In this document: positions 13,299 through 45,352 of the stretch, one piece after another
How the letters are laid out: each line of letters begins with the position of its first letter
Numbering within the stretch: the first letter of the stretch is position 1
Translations under genes and position numbers: made by a program
From: Culturomica sp.
GTDB taxonomy: Bacteria > Bacteroidota > Bacteroidia > Bacteroidales > Marinifilaceae
DNA length: 64,000 bases
Direction of reading: 5' to 3'
NCBI GenBank assembly: GCA_031271755.1
Contig: JAISVB010000034.1
Span: forward strand, 1-64,000
The notes under the pieces: model-generated
What the model saw: only the letters and a program-made list of their open reading frames with translations
What the model was told of the DNA's origin: nothing
The model's database searches: none

Positions 13299-13496
13299 AT
13301 GGAAAAGAAAATGAGTTACAAAGAGGCGATGGCTGAGATCGAACAGATCGTCGGCCTGCTGGAGGAGAACAAATTGGATGTGGACGAGTTGGGAGCCAAA
13401 GTAAAACGGGTATCCCAATTGATCGCTTTTTGCAGATCCAAACTGCACGATACGGAAGAGGAGGTGGAGAACATCCTGAAAACCATGGAGGAGTAA
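13299..13496 (+). CDS. xseB: Exodeoxyribonuclease VII small subunit
   Basis: XseB is a 65-residue helical protein that decorates XseA to form active exonuclease VII. It shows the family pattern SYKEAMAEIEQIVGLLEENKLDVDEL, a helical hairpin rich in Glu and Leu. Length and position directly after xseA make the call secure. Its TAA stop shares two bases with the ATG of the following dacB gene (TAATG), so the two are translationally coupled. Confidence 0.94.
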   Translation: MEKKMSYKEAMAEIEQIVGLLEENKLDVDELGAKVKRVSQLIAFCRSKLHDTEEEVENILKTMEE

Positions 13497-14872
13497 TGGC
13501 GATCGGGTTGTTCCGGACGGTATGGCTGTTGGCGCTTGCCGGATGCTTTGCGCCGGTGTGCGGACAGCAGGCCGCTGTGCAAAAGTTGTTGGGCGCTGAG
13601 GGGTTGAAAAGCGCCTCCGTGAGCATCTCCGTCAAGTCGGTGGCGGACGGAAAACTGGTGCTGGACTACCGCTCGGGCAAATCCATGCAACCCGCTTCCA
13701 TTGTCAAGTTGTTTTCCATGGCGTTGGCTCTGAAAGAAAAGGGAGAAAATTTCCGGTACAGAACGCCGGTTTGGTATACCGGTACGATCCGGGACGGCGT
13801 GCTGTACGGCGATATCGTCGTAGAGGCGTCCGGCGACCCTTCTCCCGATTCCCGCTATTTTCCGGAATACAGGTTGACGGAGCGTTTGGTGCGGGAAGTG
13901 AAGGTGGCCGGCATCGGTAAGATCCGCGGGGATATCCGGGTGGAGACCGGCGGGCTTTCTGCGGAGTTGCCCGGCTCCTGGCTTTGGGAAGACATTTCCA
14001 ACTACTACGGGAGCGGCTGGTTTCCCTTTAATTACCGGGATAATACCTACGAATTGCTCTTTACCACCGGGGCGGCAGGCGCTCCTGCCCGGTTGACAGG
14101 CGTGGAGCCGGCTGTTCCGGATGCGGAGTTTCGCTCTTCGGTGGTCGCTTCTGCGGAAAACCGGGACAATGCATGGATTTACGGCGGGCCGTATACCTGC
14201 ATTTTCCGTGTCAAAGGGACGATCCCCGCCAACCGGGCGGTGTTCCGGGTCAAGGGAGGCATGCACCGTCCCGACCGCTGTTTTTTGCAGGAGATCAGAC
14301 AACTCTTCTCCCGCGAAGGGGTGGATTGGGTACGGGATACGTTGCCCAAGCCCGGCAAGACTCCCTGGTTTGAGTTTCGCTCTCCGGCTTTGGAAGAGCT
14401 TGTTTTTCACACCAACAAAAAAAGCATCAACCTCTTTTCGGAAGCGTTGGGACGCCTCGCTGCCGGAGCGGATTTCCAGTCGGGTGTCCGGATGTTCCTG
14501 GCCGCTATCGGAAGTGATTCGACCGGGGTGGTTTTGAAGGATGCCTGCGGCCTCTCTCCTTACAACGCCGTGCCGGCTGCTGCTTTTACCGACTTGTTGG
14601 TGTGGGTTCGGAGCCAAAGCGGGGAGGCGTTGGTGCGTTCGCTTCCCGTGGCGGGGGTCGACAGTGGATTGAATGCTTATTGCCGCAACCACCCCTCGCT
14701 GAAAAACAGGTTGCGGGCCAAGACCGGTTCCTTTTCCGGCGTCCGCACGCTCTCCGGTTATCTCTCTGACCGTTCCGGCCGGCTGTTGGCTTTTACGGTG
14801 CTCATCAACCATTACGACTGTCCGCCGGCCCGGATTTGCGACGAGGTCGGGGCGTTTTTGGATGCGTTGTAG
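13496..14872 (+). CDS. dacB: D-Ala-D-Ala carboxypeptidase/endopeptidase, PBP4 (class C) family
   Basis: This periplasmic peptidase trims or cleaves cross-links in peptidoglycan. The ATG at 13496 overlaps the xseB stop and gives a signal peptide (MAIGLFRTVWLLALAGCFAPVCGQ). The active-site tetrad SIVK lies near residue 67, an SxN motif is seen in KKSINLFSE, and the KTG motif is in RAKTGSFSG. These three motifs, their spacing and the length of 458 residues fit PBP4/DacB. The last Cys before the mature part is not a clear lipobox. It is convergent with the GH92 gene, which ends 17 nt away. Confidence 0.92.
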   Translation: MAIGLFRTVWLLALAGCFAPVCGQQAAVQKLLGAEGLKSASVSISVKSVADGKLVLDYRSGKSMQPASIVKLFSMALALKEKGENFRYRTPVWYTGTIRDGVLYGDIVVEASGDPSPDSRYFPEYRLTERLVREVKVAGIGKIRGDIRVETGGLSAELPGSWLWEDISNYYGSGWFPFNYRDNTYELLFTTGAAGAPARLTGVEPAVPDAEFRSSVVASAENRDNAWIYGGPYTCIFRVKGTIPANRAVFRVKGGMHRPDRCFLQEIRQLFSREGVDWVRDTLPKPGKTPWFEFRSPALEELVFHTNKKSINLFSEALGRLAAGADFQSGVRMFLAAIGSDSTGVVLKDACGLSPYNAVPAAAFTDLLVWVRSQSGEALVRSLPVAGVDSGLNAYCRNHPSLKNRLRAKTGSFSGVRTLSGYLSDRSGRLLAFTVLINHYDCPPARICDEVGAFLDAL

Positions 14873-14889: not shown

Positions 14890-17199
14890 CTATTTCGCGG
14901 AAAACGAATACGGGCTGTCTGCCGTTGCGGTTCCGCGCGCGGTGTCGGGTTCGGAGGTCATTTCAAACAACAGTTTTGCTCCGGAGGCGATTTCAGCGTG
15001 GGTCAGGTAATTGCGCGAAACGGTTCGGCCGTCTATTTGCAGCGATTTGACATACGGCGCTCCGGGGCTGTTGCCTGCGGCTTCGATCCCGATCCGCCGG
15101 CCGTTTTCGAGCGTGACGGTTGCTTTCGGGAAAAGCGGCGAGCCGAGGGCGTATTCTCCCGAACCGGGACACACGGGATAGAATCCGAGAGCTGAAAAGA
15201 CGTACCAGGCCGAGGTTTGGCCGTTGTCCTCGTCGCCGCAATATCCGTCCGGGGCGGAGGAGTAGAAACGATCCATTACTTCGCGTACCCAATGCTGCGT
15301 TTTCCAGGGTTGCCCGGCCCAGTCGTACAGGTAGAGCATGTGCTGGACGGGCTGGTTGCCGTGGGCATAGTTGCCCATGTTCATGACCTGCATTTCAGCG
15401 ATCTCGTGGATCCGGAATCCATAGTAGCTGTCGTCGTACACGGGGGGCACCACCATCACCGAATCGAGCATCTCCGCAAAGCGTTCCCGTCCGCCCATCA
15501 GTTCCGCCAGCCCGCCCGGGTCGTGAAATACGCTCCAGGTGTAGTGCCACGAGTTGCCTTCGGTAAAATCGCCGCCCCATTTGTACGGGTCGAACGGTTC
15601 GCTCCATGCGCCGTCCGCCTTGCGTCCGCGCATCACCCCCCTTGAAGGATCGAAAACACGGCGGTAGTTCCCAGCGCGTTCGCCGTAGACAGCTATTTCG
15701 TCCGCCGGTTTTCCCAAAGCCTTTCCGGCCTGGTAAATACACCAGTCGTCGTAAGCGTATTCCAATGTACGGGCTACATTTTCGCGGATCCCCACATCGC
15801 AGGGGACATACCCCAGCGTGTTGTAATATTCGTGTCCCAATCGGCCGGTGGAGCGCACCGCGGGATGAACGCTGTCCGTTGCGGTGAGCAGGGTGCGGTA
15901 GAGGATTTCGATATCCTCCTGCGGGATGGGAATGCCTTTCAGTATGGCGTCGGCTACTACCGATGCGGAGTTGTTTCCAACCATGCAGTCGCGGTGTCCG
16001 GGCGAGGCCCATTCGGGCAGAAAACCGCTCTCCCGCGCGGCGTTGGCAAGCCCCTGCTGGATCTCTGCGCTCACCGAGGGGTAAACTAAGTTCAACAGCG
16101 GGAACAGGCTGCGAAAGGTGTCCCAGAAACCGGTGTCGGTATACATATAACCCGGCAACACTTCGCCGTTGTAAGGACTGTAATGCACCGTTTCGCCCGT
16201 GGAAGTGATCTCGTAGAATTTGCGCGGAAAGAGCAGGCTGCGGTAGAGGCACGAATAAAAGGTGCGCAGTTGTCCGTCCGTTCCTCCTTCGACGCGGATG
16301 CGTCCCAGTACCTCGTCCCAGCGGGCTTGCGCTTTCTCTTTTACCTGTTCGAAGGAATCTTCGCCGAGCTCTTCGAGATTCCGGTACGCCTGTTCAAGGC
16401 TGATGAACGACGAGGCCACCCGTGCTGTGACCTGTTGTCCGCGACGGGTATCAAAACCGATAACGGCCCCGGCATGGTTGCCTGTAAAAACAGTGGTTTG
16501 CGGAATGATCTCGCCCCCTTCCTTCCATACCTGTCCATCGGCAAAGGGGGTGTCGAACTGCACCACGAACCAGTTGCGGAAGTTATCCGGCACCCCGCCG
16601 TGGTTGGCGGTGGTGTAGCCGACTACCGTCCGGCGTTCGGGGAGTATTTCGATGGATGAATTTCCGCGGTAAGCGTCTATTACTACCGCCGAGGAGTCAC
16701 TTTGGGGAAAAGTAAACCGCAGGATCGCCGCCCGTTCGGAAGGAGTTAATTCGGCCAGTACGTCGTGGTCGGCCAGGTAGACGTTGTAATAATAGGGGCG
16801 GGCGATCTCGCTTTTGTGCGAGAAGATGCTCGCACGGGCGTCTTCGCCGGTTTTTGTGCGCCCGTTGACAGGCATCAGCGAGAAACAGCCGTAATCGTTG
16901 ATCCACGGGCTTGGCTGGTGGGTCTGTTTCAGCCCGCGTATAGTGTGGTGATCGTAGCGGTAGGTCCACCCGTCGCCGTTCCTGCCCGTTTGGGGCGTCC
17001 AGCAGTTCATGCCCCACGGCAGGGCTGTGGCCGGGTAGGTGTTGCCCGCTGAAAAGGAGTAGTCGGAGAGCGTGCCGGCAAGGGTCGAAACGTAGTCGGA
17101 AGGGCGCATTCCATCTCCTGCCGGCCGGTTGCGGCCGGTACATCCGGCGGCAGAGATCAAGGCCGCTGTAAGTACTGCGAGTGCTATGTGCCTGTTCAT
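14890..17199 (-). CDS. GH92 alpha-mannosidase, lipoprotein
   Basis: GH92 enzymes are calcium-dependent, inverting exo-alpha-mannosidases that attack mannans and N-glycans. The N-terminus has a lipoprotein signal (ISAAGC, Cys at about residue 20), so the protein probably faces the periplasm or cell surface. Family hallmarks are FRSLFPLLNLVYP, the EGNSWHYTW motif, HGNQPVQHMLYLYDWAGQP and GYCGDEDNGQTSAWYVFSA near the C-terminus, which includes the acidic catalytic-site residues. At 769 residues the length is typical. It is the last gene of a four-gene operon, 40 nt after another GH92 gene. Linkage specificity cannot be read reliably by eye. Confidence 0.95.
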   Translation of the reverse strand: MNRHIALAVLTAALISAAGCTGRNRPAGDGMRPSDYVSTLAGTLSDYSFSAGNTYPATALPWGMNCWTPQTGRNGDGWTYRYDHHTIRGLKQTHQPSPWINDYGCFSLMPVNGRTKTGEDARASIFSHKSEIARPYYYNVYLADHDVLAELTPSERAAILRFTFPQSDSSAVVIDAYRGNSSIEILPERRTVVGYTTANHGGVPDNFRNWFVVQFDTPFADGQVWKEGGEIIPQTTVFTGNHAGAVIGFDTRRGQQVTARVASSFISLEQAYRNLEELGEDSFEQVKEKAQARWDEVLGRIRVEGGTDGQLRTFYSCLYRSLLFPRKFYEITSTGETVHYSPYNGEVLPGYMYTDTGFWDTFRSLFPLLNLVYPSVSAEIQQGLANAARESGFLPEWASPGHRDCMVGNNSASVVADAILKGIPIPQEDIEILYRTLLTATDSVHPAVRSTGRLGHEYYNTLGYVPCDVGIRENVARTLEYAYDDWCIYQAGKALGKPADEIAVYGERAGNYRRVFDPSRGVMRGRKADGAWSEPFDPYKWGGDFTEGNSWHYTWSVFHDPGGLAELMGGRERFAEMLDSVMVVPPVYDDSYYGFRIHEIAEMQVMNMGNYAHGNQPVQHMLYLYDWAGQPWKTQHWVREVMDRFYSSAPDGYCGDEDNGQTSAWYVFSALGFYPVCPGSGEYALGSPLFPKATVTLENGRRIGIEAAGNSPGAPYVKSLQIDGRTVSRNYLTHAEIASGAKLLFEMTSEPDTARGTATADSPYSFSAK

Positions 17200-17239: not shown

Positions 17240-19561
17240 TCATTTCCGGCTCTCCGAAAGGCCGATCGTCAGTTTTTTGCCGGTCACCAACTCCCGGTGG
17301 CCGATCCGGTAGTTTTTGACGGGCTTTCCGCCTATGTGTATGGAACGGATGTACCTGTCTGCGGGTTTTGTGCGCGGCGCTTCTATAACGATCTCTCCGG
17401 CAGGATAATAGGCTGTATCGAGAGAGAGTGTGATCTTCTCGAATGTGGGGGTCGTGAGCATATAATCGGGCTTGCCGGGACAGTCGGGATAGAGTCCCAT
17501 CATACTGAAAACCGCCCATGCCGACATCGTTCCTGCGTCGTCGTTGCCGGGGATGCCGTTCGGAGCGGTGGTGAAGCAGGTATCGAGCAACTGGGCGACC
17601 CGCCTCTGGGTGCGCCACTCTTCGCCCGGAAAATAGTTGAAAAGATAGGGATAGGCGATGTCGGGTTCGTTGGCCGGGTCGTAATACCCTTTGTCAAAAA
17701 CCGCTTCGAGTTTATCGACGAATTTCTTTGGGCCGCCCATCAGCGCCGCTAAGCCCTTGGGATCATGCGGCACATAGAAGGTGTAGTTCCACGCGCATCC
17801 TTCGTGGAATCCGGGATTCGGTTCAAAGTTCATTCCCTGTGCGGGATCGAAAGGAGCGTAAAATTTCTTGTCCGCTGTTTTTGGGCGCAGGGTGCCGAAC
17901 TGCGGGTCGTAATAATTGCGCCATCCCTCGGAACGTTTGCGGAAAAGAGCGGCGTCCTCTTTGCGGCCGAGATCTCCGGCGAGCAGCGAAAGGGCATAGT
18001 CGGCGATGTAGTACTCCAGTGCGTGCGATACCGAGTTGTCGTACTTCCCGCGCAGGGGTACATAACCCAATCGTATATAATCGTTTATGTCAGGGCGCAT
18101 GCGGTTGAATTCGCCGGTCAGGGTGGAGTAATAGGAGTCGGGCATTTCGCCCCCTTCCCTTACCCCGCTGCCGGAGAAGTCTATGCCCGGTGTGGTGGCC
18201 GATTTGAGGAATGCCTCGTAAGCCTTTTCGATATCGTACCCGCGCACCCCCTTGAGCCACGTGTCGGCGATGACGGGAATGGAGGGATCTCCTTCCATCG
18301 TCCACGTTTCGCGGCCGAACAGTTCCCACTTGGGCATCCATCCCCACTCCTCGTACATGCCGATCATGGAGCGCACCATGTCGGCCTGTTTGGCGGGATA
18401 GAGCAGTGTCATCAACTGGTGCAGGTTGCGGTAGGTGTCCCACAGCGAAAATACGGTGTACCGGGTGCCGGTCGTGGTGCCGGTGCGCCCGCTCTCCATC
18501 AGCGGATACTCGCCGTTTATATCGCTCAGTACGCTCGGGTGGATCAGCGTGTGGTACAAGGCGGTGTAGAATACCGTTTTCTGTTCTTCGGTGCCGCCTT
18601 CGACACGGACGCGTCCCAGGTGATCGTTCCAACCGGCGCGCGCCGCAGCGTGCAGGGCGTCGAAATTTTTGCCCCCGGCTTCAGCTTCCAGATTCAGGCG
18701 GGCATTTTCCGTACTAACGAACGAGAGTCCCATACGCACCTCGATCTGTTCCCCTTCCCGGGTGTCGAAGGTGAACCATGCCCCCACGTCGTCGCCCGCC
18801 AGTTCCTTTTCGTACCGGGTGTAGAGTTTGTATTTGCCCGCGTCGGTGTCCCACGCCCAGGTGACGCCCTGTGCCGGGCGCTGCTTTTTCCAGTATCCGC
18901 TCCGGGCCGGTGTTTTACTAAGCCGCATCACGAAATAGACCGGGAAGACCGCCTGCGAATTGTAGCAGAACGTACCCAGCAATTTGAAGCCTTCAATCTC
19001 TGTGTCGCTGACCCGGCGCAGCATGGCGCCGCTTTCGTTCGTCAGCCCCGTGCCCAGGTTCAGCAGAATATTTCCCTGGCCGGCGGGGAAGGTGAAGCGG
19101 GTCACTCCGCTTCGGGTGGTTGCTGTGGCTTCGGCCCGGATGCCGTAGCGTTCCAGATCGACCGAATAGTAGCCCGGAGAGGCTTTTTGGTTGGCCATCC
19201 GGCTGCCGTAGTTGCGGTAATCGGGATCCACTCCGCCGGTCGTAGCCATCACCAGCAACGAGCCCAGATCGGGGCATCCCACTCCGCTCAGGTTGACGTG
19301 CGAAAAGCCGGTCATCCACACATTGTGATATTCATAGGGGGCGCTCCACCAGACTGAATCTTTGTCGTAGCGGTTCAACACCGAGCCGCTCACATTGAAG
19401 GGCACTACCGAAGCCATGCCGTTCGGAACGATCGCGCCGGGGTTCGTAACACCCCTGTTGGTCGTACCGATAAAGGCGTTTACCCGGTCTGCAGGCTCCT
19501 GCGCCGCTGCCGGCAGCAACATGAAAAGCGAGAAATAGAAAATCAGTAATGTCCGTTTCAT
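17240..19561 (-). CDS. GH92 alpha-mannosidase, secreted
   Basis: This is a second GH92 enzyme in the operon, 773 residues with a cleavable signal peptide (MKRTLLIFYFSLFMLLPAAAQ). The frame is open upstream of the chosen ATG, but the extension is not conserved-looking and the signal peptide fixes the start. The family motifs are FSLWDTYRNLHQLMTLLYP, GCAWNYTFYVPHDPKG and the C-terminal GNDDAGTMSAWAVFSMMG. It is clearly a different paralogue from the downstream GH92 (lower similarity, signal peptide rather than lipobox), so the pair may act on different alpha-mannosyl linkages or in different compartments. It lies 37 nt after the acetyltransferase gene. Confidence 0.95.
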   Translation of the reverse strand: MKRTLLIFYFSLFMLLPAAAQEPADRVNAFIGTTNRGVTNPGAIVPNGMASVVPFNVSGSVLNRYDKDSVWWSAPYEYHNVWMTGFSHVNLSGVGCPDLGSLLVMATTGGVDPDYRNYGSRMANQKASPGYYSVDLERYGIRAEATATTRSGVTRFTFPAGQGNILLNLGTGLTNESGAMLRRVSDTEIEGFKLLGTFCYNSQAVFPVYFVMRLSKTPARSGYWKKQRPAQGVTWAWDTDAGKYKLYTRYEKELAGDDVGAWFTFDTREGEQIEVRMGLSFVSTENARLNLEAEAGGKNFDALHAAARAGWNDHLGRVRVEGGTEEQKTVFYTALYHTLIHPSVLSDINGEYPLMESGRTGTTTGTRYTVFSLWDTYRNLHQLMTLLYPAKQADMVRSMIGMYEEWGWMPKWELFGRETWTMEGDPSIPVIADTWLKGVRGYDIEKAYEAFLKSATTPGIDFSGSGVREGGEMPDSYYSTLTGEFNRMRPDINDYIRLGYVPLRGKYDNSVSHALEYYIADYALSLLAGDLGRKEDAALFRKRSEGWRNYYDPQFGTLRPKTADKKFYAPFDPAQGMNFEPNPGFHEGCAWNYTFYVPHDPKGLAALMGGPKKFVDKLEAVFDKGYYDPANEPDIAYPYLFNYFPGEEWRTQRRVAQLLDTCFTTAPNGIPGNDDAGTMSAWAVFSMMGLYPDCPGKPDYMLTTPTFEKITLSLDTAYYPAGEIVIEAPRTKPADRYIRSIHIGGKPVKNYRIGHRELVTGKKLTIGLSESRK

Positions 19562-19598
19562 GGTTAAGGATATTGTTTTTTTATATTCGATGATCTTG

Positions 19599-20711
19599 TC
19601 AGATCTTGATGCAAATCTGTTTCCGGTAGAGGAGGTGTCCGACGCACCATACAAAGAGCACAAAAAGGATGGAGTAGGCGAAGGAACCGCCGTATGCCCC
19701 GAAGCACGGTTCCAGGATCTCCCGGTATACAAAGTGTTTTACGCTGATCGTTTTGTCGTCGTAATGAAATGTGATCCCGGACAGGAAAATGGCAAAGACC
19801 TCGGCAAAGACGTAGATAAACAACGGGTTGACCCCGAACGATTCAAAGAAACGGCTCCATTTTTTGCACCCTTTGGCGTCGATGATCCAGGCCAGCAGGG
19901 CTAATAAAGTCGCTCCCATACCGCAGGTGACCAGCACAAAGGTGGAGGACCAGATCTTTTTGTTGATGGGACAACCGTAGCTCAACAGGAATCCGGCAAA
20001 TGTGAGCGCGGCGCCGGTCACAAACAACCGGGTGATCTGCTTGCCGGCGTCATTCGTTTCCCGGATCATTTTTCCGCAGAGGAATCCGATCAGTACGTTA
20101 CACAGCGCCGAAACGGTGCTCAGGATCCCTTCGGGGTCAAAATCGGGCGTATGCAGGTGATTGGAACCTAAAATGGCTTTGTCCGTCAGGCCGATGAGGT
20201 TGTTTTCTCCGGAAACCGTTCCGTTTCCGAGCCACATCAACAGGGCGTAACCGGTCAGGAGGAAGGCGGTGATGTACGGGATGTATTTGTGCTTGATCCC
20301 AATAGCCACGAAGGAGGCGAGGCAGAAGGTGACGGCCAAACGTTGCAAAACGCCCGGAATGCGCAGGTGGGAGAAGCCGGCCAGCGTGTGGCTCCGGAAA
20401 CACAATCCGATCCACGCAATGGCCAGCCCGAGGCCGAAAATGACGCATGTACGCCTGATGATTTTGTATACCAGCGCTTTATTCGCCCGGAAGTGGTACT
20501 TTTGGAGGGAGAAAAAGGTAGATATTCCCATGATGAACAGGAAGAAGGGGAAAACCAGATCGGTCGGCGTCAGGCCGTCCCAGCCGGCGTGGCGCAGTGG
20601 AGCGTAGACATAGTTCCAGTTCCCGGCATTGTTCACTAAGATCATACCGGCGATGGTGATCCCCCTCAACACATCCAGTGACAACAAGCGTTTTTCGCTA
20701 ATTTTTTCCAT
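19599..20711 (-). CDS. HGSNAT-like (DUF5009/NagX type) membrane acyltransferase
   Basis: The 370-residue polytopic membrane protein has about ten hydrophobic helices. Its first 60 residues match the pattern of the eukaryotic lysosomal heparan-alpha-glucosaminide N-acetyltransferase: RLLSLDVLRG, then LRHAGWDGLTPTDLVFPFFLFIMG. His41 sits where the human enzyme has its catalytic His in KHASWNGLT (from memory). The human protein moves an acetyl group from cytosolic acetyl-CoA to terminal glucosamine across the membrane. The gene begins 9 nt after a GH89 alpha-N-acetylglucosaminidase gene, the enzyme acting next in the lysosomal pathway. A periplasmic amino-sugar acetylation role is inferred. Confidence 0.82.
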   Translation of the reverse strand: MEKISEKRLLSLDVLRGITIAGMILVNNAGNWNYVYAPLRHAGWDGLTPTDLVFPFFLFIMGISTFFSLQKYHFRANKALVYKIIRRTCVIFGLGLAIAWIGLCFRSHTLAGFSHLRIPGVLQRLAVTFCLASFVAIGIKHKYIPYITAFLLTGYALLMWLGNGTVSGENNLIGLTDKAILGSNHLHTPDFDPEGILSTVSALCNVLIGFLCGKMIRETNDAGKQITRLFVTGAALTFAGFLLSYGCPINKKIWSSTFVLVTCGMGATLLALLAWIIDAKGCKKWSRFFESFGVNPLFIYVFAEVFAIFLSGITFHYDDKTISVKHFVYREILEPCFGAYGGSFAYSILFVLFVWCVGHLLYRKQICIKI

Positions 20712-20720
20712 ATCTGTTGT

Positions 20721-22895
20721 TTAGAAAATACCCGCTTCCGCACAGATCCGTCTGACCGTCGGGATCACCTCTTGTTGCGGGGTATCCGGGTATGTTTTGC
20801 GTTCGTTTGTCCAAGCCTCTTCCACCGCGTAAAAATCAATTTCTCCGGGTGTTTTCCGGTGCATTTTTTCGGATAAATAATTGAAAAAGAGTTCCCACCG
20901 CAGGCGGTAAAGGTCCTTTAACACGCCGTTCCACTCCCGGTGGGCGTAGTCGTGCAGCCCTCCCTGATCGGCTGCCGTGCGGTTTCCCCAGGTGGTGATC
21001 TGCGTGCGGGCGTTCCATTCGTACAACTCCTTCTCCTGGGCTGTTTGTCCGAGGTTCCGGGCATCCCGGATCCAACTGCCCAGCATAAATTCCGGGCGGG
21101 TGGAGAGCAGTTCGTCCTGCAGCTCTATCAGGCGGAGGAATTTCTTCGTTGTCCGTTCGAAAGCATACCGGTCCCGGGCGCGGTATGCAGCCGTCACTTC
21201 CAATTGGGTGCGGCGTCCCTGTTCGGCGACAGCCTGCCGGACCAGATCGACCAGATCGTACTCGAAGTTGTTGTTCCCCTGGAACTCGCCGGCGGCCGAC
21301 AGCATGAGCCGGGCAGCCAAAAGAATGGAATCCGCTTCGTAGTAGACGTCCGATTCCGACCAACTGGAAACGGTATTGACCACTTCTGCCGGACGGGCGC
21401 AGAAAACAGATTCCGTTGTGCCCTGCTGGGTGGATTCGGCCGGACAGTTGTAAATGGAATTGGATAACAATTTCCAGGCTTCCCATACGGCGGGCGTTGT
21501 TTTTCCGTAGCGGGCTTTGACATACCGGTGCAGCCAGTCGTCTTTGTCGAAACGTGTTTCGCCCCTCCAGGGGAGTTCGCACAGGAGTTCGTACATGACG
21601 GGGTTGTTCTCAATGCCTTCCATGGTTAGACCGACGCCGCGCAGTGTCTGTCCGAAGGGGCTTTCCTTTGCTTTGTAAAACTCGTCGATCAGGTGGGACA
21701 TTTTTCCGTGCAGTCCGACATTTCCGCCGAAGTTCAGCAACATGCAGCAGATCCAGTTGTGTTGCCCGAATCCCTTCTCCCTTTTCCAGGTGGAAGCAGT
21801 ATCTCCCCATTGCGGGCGGCTTTCGGAAAAGAGATCCAACACCAGCATCTCTCCCTGCCGGATGTTCCGGATCATTTGCGGGCGGGGGTTGGCGCCCCAG
21901 GCCTGTATGACCCACGCCGCTTTCGGGTTGTTTTTCCGCATCGCTTGCAGGATGGCCTGTCCGGTGGCGTCAAGATCCACCCCTTTCGTATCCCCGCCTT
22001 CGTGGAAAGGATCCATGCTGTAAAAATTCGCTTTGCCGAACAGTTTGTTCATCTCCTTGTAATACAGGGAGGCTATTTTCTGAAAATTCGGATCGGTGGG
22101 TTGCAGAAAGGCCGGCCGGCGGTAACTGCACCACAACCCCGGATCGGCTACGTCCAATCCCAATTTTGCTTTGGCATTGTTGGGCAACATGCCGGAATAG
22201 CCGGGCAGAACAGGTTCTATACCGTATTCGCGCATCCGCCGGACAATGTTTTGTTGCAACGTGGCCTGTTGCCTGTACCAACTGTCCGGATTGGGACCTC
22301 CCCATCCTTCGAGGTTGTTCATCTGCCACCAGGCCAAAAAGCCCGGACCGGCGATAAATTCGTTGATCTCCTGCCGGGTGTAACCCAGTTCGCGCAAGAG
22401 GTTGTACCAAACGGTTTCGGCGCCGGTGATGGCCAGAGACAAATTGATGCCGTGGAGCGCCATCCAGTCGATCTCCTGCTGCCAGCGTTCCCAGTCCCAG
22501 AAAGCCATGGAGTAAGAAAATGTACAGTAGTTCAGGTAATAGCGAAGGGTATGGGTGGTTTCATGCCTCTCTTTTTGCGGAACTACCGGGAGTTCCGCAG
22601 GCAATTTCGCTCTCATCCCGTTCCACGAAAGATGTATACCGGCGTAGTATTTCAGGTACCAGTTGATACCCGTCGCGATGTTGACATAGGTATTTCCCCG
22701 GACGACTACTTTCTCCCCTTGTTGATCCAGTTCAAAAAAGTCGGCGGCCTGATCGGATTTGACCAGTTCGACCGTAAACTTTCGGGAAGCGCCCGGGTCG
22801 ATCCGTTCCAGCAACCCCGTGATCGGATGGGCCTGGAGGAACGAGCCCGAAGAAATAGCGATCATGAGGAATAAAAATAGTTTTTTCAACTTCAT
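20721..22895 (-). CDS. GH89 alpha-N-acetylglucosaminidase (NAGLU-like)
   Basis: GH89 enzymes release terminal alpha-linked GlcNAc, for example from heparan sulfate or from GlcNAc-alpha-1,4-Gal caps on mucin. A signal peptide (MKLKKLFLFLMIAISSGSFLQA) leads to an N-terminal domain and then the catalytic barrel. The barrel shows LNYCTFSYSMAFWDWERWQ, WQMNNLEGWGGPNPDSWY, MDPFHEGGDTKGVD and GLTMEGIENNPVMYELL. By analogy with human NAGLU, the Glu residues in FHEGG and TMEGIENN are the likely catalytic pair. An in-frame ATG at 22904 is an alternative start. It is the first gene of the operon. Confidence 0.94.
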   Translation of the reverse strand: MKLKKLFLFLMIAISSGSFLQAHPITGLLERIDPGASRKFTVELVKSDQAADFFELDQQGEKVVVRGNTYVNIATGINWYLKYYAGIHLSWNGMRAKLPAELPVVPQKERHETTHTLRYYLNYCTFSYSMAFWDWERWQQEIDWMALHGINLSLAITGAETVWYNLLRELGYTRQEINEFIAGPGFLAWWQMNNLEGWGGPNPDSWYRQQATLQQNIVRRMREYGIEPVLPGYSGMLPNNAKAKLGLDVADPGLWCSYRRPAFLQPTDPNFQKIASLYYKEMNKLFGKANFYSMDPFHEGGDTKGVDLDATGQAILQAMRKNNPKAAWVIQAWGANPRPQMIRNIRQGEMLVLDLFSESRPQWGDTASTWKREKGFGQHNWICCMLLNFGGNVGLHGKMSHLIDEFYKAKESPFGQTLRGVGLTMEGIENNPVMYELLCELPWRGETRFDKDDWLHRYVKARYGKTTPAVWEAWKLLSNSIYNCPAESTQQGTTESVFCARPAEVVNTVSSWSESDVYYEADSILLAARLMLSAAGEFQGNNNFEYDLVDLVRQAVAEQGRRTQLEVTAAYRARDRYAFERTTKKFLRLIELQDELLSTRPEFMLGSWIRDARNLGQTAQEKELYEWNARTQITTWGNRTAADQGGLHDYAHREWNGVLKDLYRLRWELFFNYLSEKMHRKTPGEIDFYAVEEAWTNERKTYPDTPQQEVIPTVRRICAEAGIF

Positions 22896-23212
22896 AACTG
22901 TCATTTTATGCAGGGCGAATATACAGTATTTTACCCGTTGTACCTTTAAACAGGTGTATAAAAAAGTTGTTCCTGTCGGATATCATCTGTGTATTTGTTT
23001 GAATTTCATTCAGAAAACACACTTGCTACCGCTTTCTTTCGCTATTCTGCCTTTAGTATACCGTAAGAATACGCGTAAAATGGAACAAGGGTGGCCGTGT
23101 TATCGGGATTGCTTGATAGCGAAATCACTGTAGTTGTGAATATAGGTATTATGCGTGCCTTATTGGTGTATTAAAAATAAAATGTTACTTTGCGTCCTGA
23201 AAAACGTTCACT
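22896..23212. other. Divergent intergenic region, no gene seen
   Basis: About 300 nt separate the start of the GH89 operon (leftward) from queD (rightward). It is AT-rich compared with its flanks. I see a promoter for queD at its right side (listed separately). A one-mismatch -7 box for the leftward operon lies at 22917-22924 (TATATTCG on the - strand). No open frame of convincing composition and no clear RNA fold is present. Confidence 0.6.
23162..23192 (+). promoter_or_regulatory. Bacteroidota-type promoter for queD
   Basis: ATTG at 23162-23165 and TTACTTTG at 23185-23192 are separated by 19 nt. This resembles the Bacteroidota sigma-ABfr pattern of a TTTG -33 element and a TAnnTTTG -7 element, with one mismatch in each. 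The queD start codon lies 20 nt downstream, giving a short leader without a Shine-Dalgarno sequence. Confidence 0.5.
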
Positions 23213-32094: not shown

Positions 32095-32762
32095 ACTAAA
32101 TCTTCCGGCCACGTCAGCTTGATATTGGAAATTTCCCCCCGGATCAAGATGACGGGTTCTCCCGGCAGGTATTTTTTTACGACCCCGCAATCGTCCGTCG
32201 CTGTAAACGCCGGATCGGCCAACGCCTTGTCAAAAGCCCGTTGCAGCACTTCGCGGTCGAATCCCTGCGGGGTTTGCATCCGGAAGAGCCGGGAACGGTC
32301 AAGGATCTGCCGGATCTGCCGGGTATCCGGATCTGCTTCCGCTACCGTATCGATTTCCGGGATGGCGGCGCCTGCCGCCCGGTTGTGTTGCAAAGCCGCC
32401 AGAAGATCGTCGATGATCCGGGCGGAGACCAAAGGGCGTACGGCGTCGTGGATCAGTAAATTACAGGTACGATCCCGGTAGGCACGCAACGCACGCAACG
32501 TGGAGTGATAGCGTTCTTTCCCTCCGTCCAAAATATGCGTGATCTTGCGGAATGCTTTCCCGGCTAAAATTTTTTCCGTTTTCTCCCGGTAACCGGGATG
32601 AACGACCAGGGCGATCTCGTCTATGCCCGGATGCTTTTCAAAAACAGCGAGGGTGTGTTCCAGAACGGTTTTACCGGCAATCGACAAAAATTGCTTGGGA
32701 AGTTCTTTTCCCATTCGCAATCCGGATCCTCCGGCTAACAGGACGGCCACATTTTGCTTCAC
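32034..32762 (-). CDS. ispD: 2-C-methyl-D-erythritol 4-phosphate cytidylyltransferase (IspD)
   Basis: IspD couples CTP to MEP in the non-mevalonate isoprenoid pathway. The CTP-binding loop LLAGGSGLRMGKELPKQFL is at residues 8-26. LIHDAVRPLVS, TVAEAD and MQTPQGF follow, and the sequence ends with TWPEDLVWIEKRL. No ATG fits. The start is taken as GTG at 32762, which overlaps the TGA stop of the GH92 gene as GTGA and gives MKQNVAVLLAGG, the correct family N-terminus. At 242 residues the length is normal. An essential housekeeping gene translated by coupling to a glycosidase gene is unusual. Confidence 0.93.
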   Translation of the reverse strand: MKQNVAVLLAGGSGLRMGKELPKQFLSIAGKTVLEHTLAVFEKHPGIDEIALVVHPGYREKTEKILAGKAFRKITHILDGGKERYHSTLRALRAYRDRTCNLLIHDAVRPLVSARIIDDLLAALQHNRAAGAAIPEIDTVAEADPDTRQIRQILDRSRLFRMQTPQGFDREVLQRAFDKALADPAFTATDDCGVVKKYLPGEPVILIRGEISNIKLTWPEDLVWIEKRLTAWNEGVQDGLMS

Positions 32763-34969
32763 GGCTGTTGATCTGTCAATACAAATTCCAGCGATCCGCC
32801 CTGCATGATCTCCTCGTGCGTGATCCAGCTCCGATCCAACTCTTTGCCGTTCAGCAGCGCTTTTGTCACATAGATGTGGCCGGGAGTCTCTTTGTTGGCG
32901 GTCACGGTAAACTTTCGTTCCGGCCCGGTCCGGATGGTTACCCGGTCGAACAGGGGAGTACCCAACTGGTATTTTCCTTCCGCCGGATTGACCGGATAGA
33001 ACCCCATGGCAGAGAAGACAAACCAGGCGGACATCTGGCCGCAATCTTCGTTTCCGCACAACCCTTCCGGACCGGTTTTATAAAGCTCCCGCATGATCCG
33101 GTTCAGGTAAAACTGGGCTTTGTGGGGAGCCCCCGCGTAGTTGTAAAGGTACGCTACGTGGTGGGAAGGTTCGTTCCCCTGGGCATACTGCCCGATCATT
33201 CCGCTGATATCGGGAGAGGCTTCTTCCCCTTCCAACACCGAAGAGATGGTAAACAGGGAGTCCAATTTCCGGACAAATGCTTCCTCTCCTCCGTGCAGGG
33301 CGATCAATCCGCTCACATCGTGCGGTACGAACCAGGAGTATTGCCAGGCATTGCCTTCGGTGTATTCGTCGTCCCGGTGTTTGGAGTAAACAGGGGAGAA
33401 GGGAGTCTTCCATTCGCCTCCGGACGATTTACCCCGCATAAAACCGGTGGAAGGATCGAACAGGTTGGCGTAGTTCTTGGATTCCTTCATAAAGAACAGG
33501 TAATCCTCCTCTTTGTCCAGCGCCTTGGCGAATTGCGCCACACACCAGTCGTCGTAAGCGTATTCCAATGTTTTGGATACCGATTCATTCTCCTGATCGT
33601 ACGGAATGTACCCGTATCGACGCAGGAGGGGGATCCCCGCTTTTCCGGCTAAGGCTGTTGTTTTAACCGCCTCGTACGCCTGTTCCGCATTGAAATCCCG
33701 GATCCCTTTCAGGTAAGCCTCCACAATGACGGAGATGGCGTGGTTGCCGATCATGCAGTTGGTTTCGTTCCCGGCCAGTTCCCAAACCGGCAACAACCCG
33801 GTCGCTTCGTAGTGTTTCAGCAGGGAACGGATCATCTCTCCGACCCGTCTTTTCTGGGTGATGGTGAAGAGCGGGTGAGTAGCCCGGAAGGTATCCCAGA
33901 GGGAGAATACCGTGTATTGCGCGTTTTTTTTGTTGCTGTGGATCTCCCCGTCCGGCCCTTTGAAATTGCCGTGGATATCGGAAAAAAGATAGGGGGCTGT
34001 ATAAGCGTGATAAAGGGCTGTGTAGAAAACCTTTAACAGCTCCTCGTCCCGGCTTTCCGCCCGGGTTTTCAGCAACTCTTTTCTCCAGGCCTGCCGGGCA
34101 TCCCGTTTCACTTTGTCGAAACTCCAGTGGGGAAGTTCTTTGTTCAGATTGGCTTCTGCGCCTTCGCAATTGGCGGACGAAAGGCTTATTTTCGCCAATA
34201 TTTTGTTGGTGTTGGAACCGAAATCGATCCAGGCATAGCAACTGTCTGCGGTGATCTTTTGCCCGTTCTGCAACGGACGCAACCGGTTTTTACCTGCCAG
34301 CACCTCTACATCCTGGGAAAATTCGATCACAAAATAGACCCGTTGGTCTCTGGCCCAGCCTCTGGATTTCCGGTGTCCCTGCAACGTGCGGTTGTTCACC
34401 TTTTTTAAACTGGCCTCCGCTGTCCGGTCCCAGTTGCGGGCCGTGGTCAGGTCTAACACCAATCCCTGTACCGGATTGGCCGGGAACTGGTAGTAATGAA
34501 ACCCGCAACGTTCGGTAACAGAAAGTTCCGTCACGATACCGTTGTCGAACTGCACCCGGTAATAGCCGGGTTCCGCCTCTTCGTTTTGGTGCGAAAAGCG
34601 GGCGTAGTTCTCCTGTATGTAGCGGGCGGCGGGGATCGCGCTGTCCGGCCGGGTCAGAACCGGCAGAAAACGAATGTCCTGAAGGTCGCCGATCCCGGTT
34701 CCGCTCAGGTGGGTGTGGGAGAAGGAGGAGATGATGCTGTCCGACCAGTGATAACCGGAACACCAATCCCAATCGCTTCTCGGGTTGTCCGGGCTGAGCT
34801 GGATGCCGCCGAACGGAACGGTCGCTCCGGGGAAGCAATGGCCATGCCCCCCCGTACCGATGAACGGATCGACATACTCTACCAGTTTAACCTCCTTTTC
34901 ATGGGAGTTGCAGGCACTCGGTAAAAACAGAAGAAGCAGAAAACAGGCGAGCGTCAGGTGTTTTTTCAT
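32759..34969 (-). CDS. GH92 alpha-mannosidase, lipoprotein (third copy)
   Basis: This third GH92 enzyme has 736 residues, with a lipoprotein signal (LLFLPSAC, Cys at about residue 20). The mature part starts VEYVDPFIGTGGHGHCFPGA, the standard GH92 opening. FSLWDTFRATHPLFTI, EGNAWQYSWFVPHDVSG and GNEDCGQMSAWFVFSAMG follow. It resembles the canonical family pattern more closely than the two GH92 genes at 14890-19561. It is 2 nt after the ROK kinase gene and shares a GTGA overlap with ispD, so all three are on one message. Substrate linkage is not assigned. Confidence 0.95.
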   Translation of the reverse strand: MKKHLTLACFLLLLFLPSACNSHEKEVKLVEYVDPFIGTGGHGHCFPGATVPFGGIQLSPDNPRSDWDWCSGYHWSDSIISSFSHTHLSGTGIGDLQDIRFLPVLTRPDSAIPAARYIQENYARFSHQNEEAEPGYYRVQFDNGIVTELSVTERCGFHYYQFPANPVQGLVLDLTTARNWDRTAEASLKKVNNRTLQGHRKSRGWARDQRVYFVIEFSQDVEVLAGKNRLRPLQNGQKITADSCYAWIDFGSNTNKILAKISLSSANCEGAEANLNKELPHWSFDKVKRDARQAWRKELLKTRAESRDEELLKVFYTALYHAYTAPYLFSDIHGNFKGPDGEIHSNKKNAQYTVFSLWDTFRATHPLFTITQKRRVGEMIRSLLKHYEATGLLPVWELAGNETNCMIGNHAISVIVEAYLKGIRDFNAEQAYEAVKTTALAGKAGIPLLRRYGYIPYDQENESVSKTLEYAYDDWCVAQFAKALDKEEDYLFFMKESKNYANLFDPSTGFMRGKSSGGEWKTPFSPVYSKHRDDEYTEGNAWQYSWFVPHDVSGLIALHGGEEAFVRKLDSLFTISSVLEGEEASPDISGMIGQYAQGNEPSHHVAYLYNYAGAPHKAQFYLNRIMRELYKTGPEGLCGNEDCGQMSAWFVFSAMGFYPVNPAEGKYQLGTPLFDRVTIRTGPERKFTVTANKETPGHIYVTKALLNGKELDRSWITHEEIMQGGSLEFVLTDQQP

Positions 34970-34971
34970 GT

Positions 34972-35934
34972 TTATTTTTTCAGTTCGTTCCAGACAAGAG
35001 CCGCCGCTCCGTAAATGGCAGCGTTTTTATCCAATTGGGAAGGCAGCAATTTGACTTTGTTGGAAAATATCTTCAACATGTTCATTTCCATGTAGTCTTT
35101 GGTCGGTTTGAAGATCAGGTCTCCGGCCTTGGCCAGGCCGCCGAACAGGAAGATCGCTTCCGGGCTGGTAATGGCTACGGTGTTGGCCAATGCTTCGCCC
35201 AGCATCTTGCCGGTGTAGTCGAATGTATATTTGGCGATCATATCCCCCCGGTGAGCCGCGTCGGCGACCATTTTAGAGGTCATGTCGTTAAAGGGTATCG
35301 ACCGCAATTCGCTGGGATCGTTGTATTTGGCCATCATTTTATAGGCGGTTCTCTTGACCCCGGTGGCCGAAACATAGGTTTCCAAACATCCTTTCCGGCC
35401 GCATCCGCACTGCCTGCCGTTGGGGGATACAATGGTGTGTCCCAGTTCGCCGGCGAATCCGTCGTGTCCGTAAATCAACGCTCCGTTGGCGACATATCCG
35501 CTTCCTAAGCCGGTTCCCAGCGTCACCATCACAAAATCTTTCATGTTTTTAGCGCCTCCGTAGACCATCTCTCCGATAGCGGCTGCGTTGGCGTCGTTGG
35601 TCAGGAATACCGGCAAGGCAGGGTAATATTCTTTCATCAGGTCGCAGAGCGGAAGTACTCCCTGCCACCGGAGATTGGGAGCGAATTCGATAGCTCCGGT
35701 ATAGTAATTGCCGTTCGGCGCGCCGATCCCGATCCCCACCAGTTCCACGCCGTCGCGTATGGTATTGAGCACCTTTTCGATGGCTAAGTGCAACTCTTTC
35801 AAGTAGTCGTTGATATCTTCGTGTTTCTGCGTTTCGATGTGTCCATCCGCCAAATAGTTGCCTTCTTTGTCAATAAAACCGAACGGGGTATTTATTCCAC
35901 CGATATCGATACCCAATGCTACTTGTTTTTTCAT
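34972..35934 (-). CDS. ROK-family sugar kinase (glucokinase-like)
   Basis: ROK proteins phosphorylate hexoses such as glucose, mannose or N-acetylmannosamine in the cytoplasm. The N-terminal ATP loop is GIDIGGINTPFGFID, with LTNDANAAAIGE (catalytic Asp in the sugar site), GTGLGSGYV and the ROK zinc motif CGCGRKGCLETY near residue 168. There is no helix-turn-helix N-terminus, so it is a kinase rather than a repressor. Its position immediately before a GH92 alpha-mannosidase suggests it phosphorylates the released hexose; that link is inference. At 320 residues the length is typical. Confidence 0.92.
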   Translation of the reverse strand: MKKQVALGIDIGGINTPFGFIDKEGNYLADGHIETQKHEDINDYLKELHLAIEKVLNTIRDGVELVGIGIGAPNGNYYTGAIEFAPNLRWQGVLPLCDLMKEYYPALPVFLTNDANAAAIGEMVYGGAKNMKDFVMVTLGTGLGSGYVANGALIYGHDGFAGELGHTIVSPNGRQCGCGRKGCLETYVSATGVKRTAYKMMAKYNDPSELRSIPFNDMTSKMVADAAHRGDMIAKYTFDYTGKMLGEALANTVAITSPEAIFLFGGLAKAGDLIFKPTKDYMEMNMLKIFSNKVKLLPSQLDKNAAIYGAAALVWNELKK

Positions 35935-43751: not shown

Positions 43752-43982
43752 ATGGAAAAGATAATAACACACGAAGAGCGCCGCGAAGGCTTTGAACTGT
43801 TTTTTAAGCTGCATCGGGAAGGAAAATCCCTCACTCCGGAGGAGATGGTGCGTATGGAGTACCTGATCGATCTGGCGGCGGAAGCGGACTACCTGACCCT
43901 TGGGCGTCCGGCTGATGATCCTTACAAAGAAGAACGAAAAAGAGCCATAAAGGCCACGTATGAGCGGGATTTATGGGTTTAG
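43752..43982 (+). CDS. Small helical protein, independently promoted
   Basis: The 76-residue product MEKIITHEERREGFELFFKL is a charged helical protein with EEMVRMEYLIDLAAEADYLTLG. The start at 43752 is chosen because the -7 box at 43725-43732 would leave any more upstream start untranscribed; an ATG at 43743 is also possible. It ends tail-to-tail with, and overlaps by 4 nt, the leftward minor head/ADP-ribosyltransferase gene. Function is unknown. Its promoter and position raise the possibility of a lysogenic or protective role. Confidence 0.5.
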   Translation: MEKIITHEERREGFELFFKLHREGKSLTPEEMVRMEYLIDLAAEADYLTLGRPADDPYKEERKRAIKATYERDLWV

Positions 43983-45352
43983 ATTTCTTCCATTGTCACG
44001 ACCACCTGTTGTCCCACCGTTTCCGATTTTACTACTTTAAGCCTTGTTCCCGGCAGGAGCAGGGCTTCCTTTTCGTCAGCATCTTTCGATACACTTTCTA
44101 TGTCCCGTGCTGTTTTCGCATGTATAACAAGGCGCACCTCACGGTTTGCATGTACATCCGGTGATTTGGTGGTGGATGAGAATCCGTCCCACTCGATGAC
44201 GGCGTCCGGTGTTGTAAACTGCTTCACAACATCCGCCGGAAGTTTATCCAAATTCCGGTAGACCACGCCTTCGACTTTTGGCAGTTTGGACACGGCTTTC
44301 GTAAGGTCTTTTTTGAAGGTAGCGAGCCTGTTTTTGTCCCACGCCTGTAGCTCCCCGCCGTAGTGCAGGCGTGCCATATCTGCCGAGAGGCCGTTTTCAA
44401 AGTCCGTATAGGCATAGGTGCGGAAGGTGTCGGCCTTTGTGAGGCCTGCCTCCGCTCCCGCCTTTTGCACGCGGGTGTTGGAGAGGAACTCCTTTTCTAT
44501 GCGCTTGATGTCGGCATCCCTGAAAAACTCCTTGGCCGATTCGTATTCCAGATTGCGAATCTCCTCTTTCATGACGTCGAATGCCTGGTCGATCAGCTTG
44601 CGTGTTGCCTGATCGGCCTCCTTGTACTGCTCGGCGATCCACTCCATGAACTTTTGCTGCTTGCTTCCGGCAAAGGCTTTGCTTTCGAGGTTGTCGTATA
44701 ACTTCTGTCTGTCCCTTCCTGTGGGCATGTCGTCTTTTGGGTAGCGTCCGGCCTGACGGGCGGTAAGCAGGATGGCGGTACAGCGGCACCGGAAGTCGAG
44801 GGGTGGGAAAAAGGTAAAATCCCCTGTCCGGAAGATCTTGCCGTGGAGTGCGGCGTGCTTGGGGCGTGTCTTTCCGTCGAGTACGGCGGAGTACTTCCAG
44901 AAGGGGAAGTCTTCGGCCGTTTCCACCATCTTTTGCATCTGTCCGCCGGCATAGGCCAGGGAGACGTTTGTTTCGTAGATGTTTTGGATTTGGTGGGTCG
45001 AGAGGCGGGTGAGGCCTGCGCGGTCAAATTCAGCGTCGACGGTCTTTTCAAATTCGCGGTACCCCTGGCCTCTTTTGATGTTCCCCGAAAGGGCTGCCTT
45101 CATGCGGGTGCGTATGCGGGCATCCTGGACGGCGGCGGTGGTAAAGGCCTGGAATTTAAAGAAGGAGGTGGCCGTGGGGTTTCCCTCGCCGAGGGCCGCC
45201 GTGAGTTCTTCGGCCGAGAAATCGCCTCTGCGCTTTTTAAGGAGGTTTAAAACGCTTTTTTCCCCTCTTTTAAAGGCGTTTAAAAGAACGTTTAAAAGGG
45301 CATTGGAAAGGTTGTTTACAAAGGCTTCATCTGGTGTATCACTGGTCAGTCC
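43979..45352 (-). CDS. Mu gpF-like minor head protein with C-terminal ADP-ribosyltransferase domain
   Basis: The MuF head-morphogenesis domain runs to about half the frame and ends with the typical FPPLDFRCRCTAILLTARQAG. The C-terminal 110 residues form an R-S-E ADP-ribosyltransferase: Arg in GVVYRNLD, the STS-like FSSTTKSP and the catalytic ExE in DEKEALLLPGTRLKVV. There is no ATG, GTG or TTG upstream of the ATG at 45103. That ATG would remove about 80 residues, including the conserved start of the MuF domain (FFKFQAFTTAAVQDARIR). The frame instead continues back to the portal stop, -1 to the portal frame, so translation by ribosomal frameshifting is proposed. Confidence 0.85.
   Translation of the reverse strand, partial: GLTSDTPDEAFVNNLSNALLNVLLNAFKRGEKSVLNLLKKRRGDFSAEELTAALGEGNPTATSFFKFQAFTTAAVQDARIRTRMKAALSGNIKRGQGYREFEKTVDAEFDRAGLTRLSTHQIQNIYETNVSLAYAGGQMQKMVETAEDFPFWKYSAVLDGKTRPKHAALHGKIFRTGDFTFFPPLDFRCRCTAILLTARQAGRYPKDDMPTGRDRQKLYDNLESKAFAGSKQQKFMEWIAEQYKEADQATRKLIDQAFDVMKEEIRNLEYESAKEFFRDADIKRIEKEFLSNTRVQKAGAEAGLTKADTFRTYAYTDFENGLSADMARLHYGGELQAWDKNRLATFKKDLTKAVSKLPKVEGVVYRNLDKLPADVVKQFTTPDAVIEWDGFSSTTKSPDVHANREVRLVIHAKTARDIESVSKDADEKEALLLPGTRLKVVKSETVGQQVVVTMEEI
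45234..45297. repeat. Phased TTTAAA array 2 (coding)
   Basis: TTTAAA-like steps are centred near 45239, 45249, 45272, 45282 and 45294, with a T6 run near 45257 filling the gap, so the spacing is 10-12 bp. Here the array is inside the minor head gene and is read as Leu/Asn/Lys/Phe-rich helices. Confidence 0.6.

Follow-up and report, generated by a model that had tools for sequence, protein, structure and literature searches.

The 64,000-nt stretch of DNA analysed here (contig JAISVB010000034.1, hereafter the window), from Culturomica sp., a gut-type member of Bacteroidales, carries on its minus strand an operon-like run of four genes, in the order GH89, acetyltransferase, GH92a and GH92b, separated by gaps of 9, 34 and 40 nt (Table 1). 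The first two products are relatives of human NAGLU and HGSNAT, which catalyse two consecutive reactions of heparan sulfate breakdown in the lysosome. A preliminary description had placed these two genes 9 nt apart in one operon, and both open reading frames (ORFs) were found where it put them; of the span that it assigned to the pair, 19599-22895, the start was correct, and the end would need another 9 nt to reach the first ATG given by the ORF caller (22904). The pair recurs across the phylum among genes for handling mannose, uronic acid, phosphate and inositol, and because of this company it probably serves inositol-linked glycans, such as the heads of plant sphingolipids, and not heparan sulfate.

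Table 1. Features of the four-gene run, with positions in the window
Feature	Position	Strand	Size and basis
GH89 alpha-N-acetylglucosaminidase (predicted), signal peptide (presumed)	20721..22904	-	727 aa; ORF list and Pfam
Intergenic gap GH89/acetyltransferase	20712..20720	-	9 nt
HGSNAT/NagX-type transmembrane (TmAT fold) acetyltransferase (predicted)	19599..20711	-	370 aa; PF07786, NagX model, alignment, structure model
GH92 alpha-mannosidase a, secreted (predicted)	17240..19564	-	GH92 domains; ATG start 19564 (MKRTLLIFYFSLFMLLPAAAQ)
GH92 alpha-mannosidase b, lipoprotein-like N-terminus (predicted)	14890..17199	-	GH92 domains

All three Pfam domains of the GH89 product score above their cut-offs (NAGLU_N, E 5e-28; NAGLU, 2e-132; NAGLU_C, 6e-86), and the protein could be aligned to CpGH89 (2vc9, E 2.5e-145) and to human NAGLU (4xwh). 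In the alignment to 2vc9, E302 and E429 correspond to CpGH89 E483 and E601, which we take to be the acid/base and the nucleophile, respectively, and both are invariant in our GH89 alignment; the N-terminus reads as a signal peptide, so that the enzyme is presumably secreted. From the domain set and the two retained glutamates, we assign the protein to GH89 with a predicted alpha-N-acetylglucosaminidase activity. The characterised bacterial enzymes CpGH89, Bf0576 and Bt3590 share the family and the catalytic glutamates with it, but unlike the window GH89 they have no partner acetyltransferase described in the literature examined. One loop segment comprises 50 residues in the window protein, as in CpGH89, against 43 in human NAGLU, and also keeps the Trp of CpGH89; its length matches CpGH89 and Bf0576, whereas human NAGLU and the heparosan-active Bt3590 are without this loop, as reported for Bt3590 (PMC8225759). 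Since loop length fails to split GH89 proteins linked to an acetyltransferase gene from unlinked ones, we use it only as weak evidence.

The membrane protein matches HGSNAT_cat (PF07786) with 30.4 bits, above the gathering cut-off of 22, and no other gene of this genome matches PF07786. Its match to DUF5009 (PF16401), 19.3 bits, falls below the gathering cut-off of 25, and its full-length match to the NagX equivalog NF046061 of NCBIfam, 133 bits, falls below the curated cut-off of 480. It resembles NagX (Shewanella SO_3504) as a TmAT-fold (transmembrane acetyltransferase) protein with a conserved catalytic His, and differs from it in this score and in the linkage of its gene to a glycosidase acting on bound alpha-N-acetylglucosamine (alpha-GlcNAc); hence the likely acceptor would be glycan-bound, not free, glucosamine. 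As the preliminary description had noted, His41 is kept from the human catalytic motif, aligning with human His297 (RHAGWDGLT in the window, KHASWNGLT in human). Moreover, all seven of the human functional residues checked are retained in the alignment to human HGSNAT: R16, N27, H41, D51, R87, R117 and E194 correspond to R275, N286, H297, D307, R345, R372 and E499. In the human enzyme H297 and D307 form the catalytic dyad, R275 and R345 hold the diphosphate of coenzyme A (CoA), and R372 and E499 contact glucosamine (PMC11199644).

An AlphaFold2 model of the protein (mean pLDDT 94.4, pTM 0.92) has human HGSNAT as its best match, with a Foldseek TM of 0.81 and a VIA Z of 41.5 at an rmsd of 2.1 Å over 339 residues (8vli); the one other strong match is GWT1, a transmembrane acyltransferase, at Z about 22, and all remaining matches, which lie outside this superfamily, score Z about 6 or less. 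The bacterial protein lacks the luminal domain and TM1 of HGSNAT, and the two genes stand in one operon-like run; the likeness to the human pair lies in the homologous enzymes, the fold and the catalytic and ligand residues. The model thus predicts an HGSNAT-type transmembrane fold; the putative reaction of such an enzyme would be acetylation of a glucosaminide by cytosolic acetyl-CoA. Given this fold match and the kept CoA-binding and catalytic residues, a loss of the acetyl-CoA pocket, which would have spoken against the earlier proposal, is not borne out as far as the model and the conserved residues tell.

Adjacency of GH89 and such acetyltransferases (below, NagX) proved to be conserved, contrary to what would have spoken against the earlier proposal. 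Among the 48 genomes with GH89 in two even samples, one of the order and one of the phylum, NagX directly adjoins GH89 in nine, from eight genera (G000, G145, G099, G144, G277, G230, G296, G335 and G211), and in some others it lies a few kb away. If gene order were free, with a chance of 0.1% per genome, nine direct neighbours would have a binomial probability of ~1e-18 (n = 47 used), before allowing for relatedness. Scanning the genome collection gave 80 loci that code for proteins related to the window GH89; NagX is the direct same-strand neighbour in 37 of them and lies within 10.5 kb in 42. Gaps are often -4 to 35 nt, and in many Prevotellaceae the two genes stand by themselves, flanked by housekeeping genes such as cca and mnmA. 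Mapped on the GH89 tree, NagX linkage takes 17 changes of state, compared with 40 in shuffles, and as 15 of these changes are forced by well-supported branches, the pairing must have been gained or lost repeatedly. The GH89-NagX pairing is not accidental, and its repetition across genomes lends good support to a logic of acetylation followed by cleavage.

The linked genes point to the substrate. In Fisher tests on locus and genome counts, which ignore relatedness, GH92 accompanies 15 of 42 NagX-linked loci and 2 of 38 unlinked ones (p 0.0009), and GH28-type enzymes 8 of 42 and 0 of 38 (p 0.006). Pair-bearing loci are rich in mannosidases, GH28, phosphatases and inositol oxygenase, and not in sulfatases (flagged in the scanned loci by a motif regular expression, not a family search) or lyases. 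Some Prevotellaceae loci read SusC-SusD-GH92-GH92-GH89-NagX, the four enzyme types of the window in another order, and loci outside Bacteroidales add myo-inositol oxygenase (MIOX, PF05153), a sodium/solute symporter (SSF), calcineurin-like phosphoesterases and mannonate dehydratase. MIOX scores above cut-off in 16 of 28 genomes with GH89 versus 17 of 364 others (392 genomes, p 2e-12), and in 13 of the 16, nine of them one genus, MIOX and GH89 are no more than 30 kb apart. The fullest sets are the contiguous loci L030 and L031, with GH89, SusC, SusD, two GH92, a phosphoesterase, a hybrid two-component system (HTCS) gene, MIOX, GH2, NagX, the SSF symporter, two GH28 and GH51, and locus L098 of Dysgonomonas macrotermitis, which reads HTCS-GH89-NagX-GH92-GH28-GH28-His_Phos_2-GH51-GH2; parts of the alpha-uronidase, phosphatase and SusC/D set also occur in L098, L002, L022 and L026. 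In locus L028 the place of GH28 is taken by GH115, a family with known alpha-1,2-glucuronidases.

Two further observations concern such neighbourhoods. Locus L145 (739-12043), with no GH89 in view, contains GH92, a SASA esterase, PI-PLC-C1 (a Ca-dependent phosphatidylinositol phospholipase C domain), a phosphoesterase, HTCS, MIOX and a symporter, a gene set consistent with use of inositol-phospholipid glycans. A conserved protein of ~190 aa recurs near GH92 (L002 7382-7954, L005 11702-12259, L031 235-843 and L033 1300-1914), the L002 copy being without a Pfam match.

We propose that the membrane acetyltransferase and GH89 form a periplasmic module, whose activity, orientation, order of action and substrate we infer from gene identity, structure model and neighbourhood. 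The acetyl group of cytosolic acetyl-CoA would pass through the pore of the acetyltransferase and be transferred to an alpha-glucosamine with a free amine at the end of a periplasmic oligosaccharide. In this reaction H41, paired with D51, would serve as general base, N27 would hold the acetyl carbonyl, and the sugar would be bound by R117 and E194; GH89, dependent on the N-acetyl group, would then remove GlcNAc, after the flanking GH92 enzymes had stripped the alpha-mannose capping the glucosamine. We lean towards this mechanism operating in the window. Of the earlier proposal that alpha-glucosamine ends are acetylated so that GH89 can cut, the two consecutive steps are supported by the fold and residues of HGSNAT, by the secreted GH89 with both glutamates and by the recurrent adjacency, while the heparan sulfate route that it implied is not.

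Candidate substrates are the heads of plant glycosylinositol phosphorylceramides (GIPCs), in which mannose is followed by glucosamine (GlcN) or GlcNAc linked alpha-1,4 to glucuronic acid (GlcA), itself alpha-1,2-linked to inositol phosphate, or glycosylphosphatidylinositol (GPI) cores (Man3-GlcN-alpha1,6-inositol). The enzyme set of one locus would match, by proposed assignment from its genes, the complete plant sphingolipid head Ara-Gal-Man-GlcN(Ac)-GlcA-inositol-P: GH51 arabinofuranosidase, GH2, GH92, NagX with GH89, GH28 or GH115, a phosphatase and MIOX would each take one residue in turn. Since the GlcN-alpha1,4-GlcA linkage is common to the GIPC head and heparan sulfate, the use of the same two enzymes as in the lysosome would be explained. 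Botrytis phospholipase C frees inositol phosphate glycans from plants (PMC11496612), hence soluble head glycans exist in nature. Our tentative picture is that Bacteroidota have loci dedicated to taking apart the glycan head of GIPCs, and perhaps GPI anchors as well, until inositol is left; there the HGSNAT-type enzyme would acetylate the free-amine GlcN fraction for GH89 and MIOX would in aerobes oxidise the inositol, and the window pair would be a reduced, anaerobic version. Catabolism of inositol glycans (GIPC or GPI) is probable, most strongly for the full loci; for the window's own pair we consider such a substrate possible, though somewhat short of an even chance. The window run does hold the GH89, NagX and GH92 core of the proposed GIPC-type locus. 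The GPI core is Man-alpha1,2-Man-alpha1,6-Man-alpha1,4-GlcN-alpha1,6-inositol, and for the window it would fit at least as well as GIPC because the locus has no alpha-uronidase and has two mannosidases, of which GH92b is close to solved putative alpha-1,2-mannosidases.

Several observations weigh against this interpretation. Most GH89 genes have no NagX neighbour. The nearest relatives of the window acetyltransferase (56%) are copies in NamZ/MurK/MurQ-type operons, with which it groups in the tree, outside the GH89-linked clade (SH-aLRT 90), so that its pairing with GH89 may be a separate event. Alpha-uronidase (GH28/GH115), phosphatase and SusC/D are absent from the window run and present in L030/L031, and the two window GH92 enzymes are not orthologues (about 30-35%) of the full-locus GH92s. 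MIOX is absent from the window locus and gave no match in the window genome, in a search lacking an internal positive control whose method found MIOX in other genomes; as MIOX requires oxygen, its absence is expected in an anaerobe. Most MIOX-bearing loci have a different NagX subtype without the N286 asparagine. The genome's one GH28 gene lies in the pectin-type locus L063, adjoining genes that read as glucuronate-isomerase-like and pectate-lyase-like; being only 27-31% identical to the GH28s of the other loci, it was not counted as a pathway member. To our knowledge, characterised GH28 members act on galacturonides.

Among the alternatives, the one that survives best is that the substrate of NagX is free glucosamine from another source and that its gene simply belongs to an amino-sugar catabolic operon, without ordered coupling to GH89. 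NagX has been proposed as a putative periplasmic glucosamine acetyltransferase, and in five bacteria it shows fitness phenotypes during growth on glucosamine (Price et al. 2022, PMC9007349). However, the GH89 product is already acetylated and therefore would not feed NagX, the direct pairing with GH89 is repeated, and the window run contains no nag transport or kinase genes, so we judge this alternative unlikely. Somewhat less likely still is trimming of mucin and N-glycans, in which GH89 would cut GlcNAc-alpha1,4-Gal of gastric mucin and GH92 the mannose of N-glycans, the acetyltransferase being incidental. The CpGH89 length and Trp of the loop segment, the nearness of GH92b to solved alpha-1,2-mannosidases, and the absence of NagX beside the GH89 genes of Bacteroides fragilis and Parabacteroides (66-69% identical to the window's) would suit it, but mucin alpha-GlcNAc needs no acetylation, and NagX is 9 nt away in a pairing that recurs.

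Salvage of heparan sulfate or heparosan as in the lysosome, with the HGSNAT-like enzyme and then GH89 acting on GlcN-alpha1,4-GlcA ends, would employ the same two enzymes on the same disaccharide linkage; Bt3590 is active on heparosan oligosaccharides (PMC8225759), and the window genome has two GH88-family matches. However, the better of these lies on the contig (C37) that also holds the pectin-type GH28 locus, few sulfatase-like genes occur next to the pair, where the linked genes are mannosidases, and the loop length of the window GH89 is unlike the human one. A look for sulfatases and lyases elsewhere in the window genome gave no match to Hepar_II_III (PF07940; other lyase families were not searched) and two to PF00884, one S-type sulfatase and one LtaS-like membrane protein, neither near the pair. 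Each of these points is weak taken alone; with neighbours that indicate mannose- and inositol-containing glycans and not a sulfated glycosaminoglycan, we hold the heparan sulfate route to be improbable. Least probable of all is that the membrane protein is an amino-sugar transporter importing the GlcNAc released by GH89, like Tannerella TfMurT, a putative N-acetylmuramic acid transporter as cited in PMC9007349, since, despite its nearest relatives named above, its strong fold matches are only to the acyltransferases HGSNAT and GWT1 (transporters at Z about 4), the catalytic His and Asp are present in all 38 aligned proteins, MurT-type ones among them, and the window genome has no MurQ match with the query used, in a search without internal positive control.

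TfMurT-like proteins of murTKQ-type operons share catalytic residues with the window protein and differ in their context of peptidoglycan amino-sugar salvage; they could be amino-sugar acetyltransferases instead of transporters, and our finding puts the latter role in question. The closest relatives, the NagX genes of L042, L043, L044 and L045, sit in NamZ/BadF-kinase/SIS-etherase (murTKQ-like) operons and encode equivalents of H297, D307, N286, R372 and E499. A second NagX subtype (L006, L022, L023, L025, L026, L031 and L033) has a GE-containing stretch in place of the acetyl-binding Asn286, and keeps the His, Asp, Arg and Glu; the members that were scored against the NagX model reach 313-370 bits.

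Our literature search, in which preprints and most subscription journals were outside the scope, found no prior description of the GH89-NagX pair, of GIPC loci or of DUF5009 with GH89, and no bacterial route for the GIPC head glycan. GIPCs have been described as major sphingolipids on Earth (PMC11907402), and according to a 2025 paper the function of DUF5009 proteins has not been confirmed in any case (PMC12423673). The gene set would constitute a directly testable pathway and offers a likely acceptor for a group of putative membrane acetyltransferases. GH89-NagX is also a bacterial parallel of the enzyme pair of Sanfilippo B and C, and might serve as a tractable HGSNAT model.

The remaining genes of the run and its surroundings are as follows. 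With the called TTG start (19732), GH92a would run into the acetyltransferase gene, and with the ATG adopted in Table 1 it does not; its nearest Protein Data Bank entry is 6f8z (378 bits). GH92b is very close to the solved putative alpha-1,2-mannosidases 2wvx/2wzs (1101 bits), and a homologue in locus L024 (56% identical) directly adjoins two GH89 genes. A minus-strand ORF at 13316-14812, initially counted in the operon, matches nothing in Pfam, and we take it for the antisense shadow of an ORF on the plus strand. Upstream of the run lies a divergent queD/queE pair, and downstream are convergent plus-strand genes including exonuclease VII. In the region 32759-35934, ~12 kb from the pair, a third GH92 gene adjoins a ROK-family kinase gene; the GH92 product is 47% identical to the GH92s of L040/L041, loci with GH89 but without NagX. 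The end of the window (38009-64000) is a Mu-like prophage with transposase, AAA protein, portal, terminase, tail sheath and tape measure genes, in which 43979-45103 encodes a Mu F-like phage head protein whose C-terminus weakly matches arginine ADP-ribosyltransferase (E 0.00027, under cut-off).

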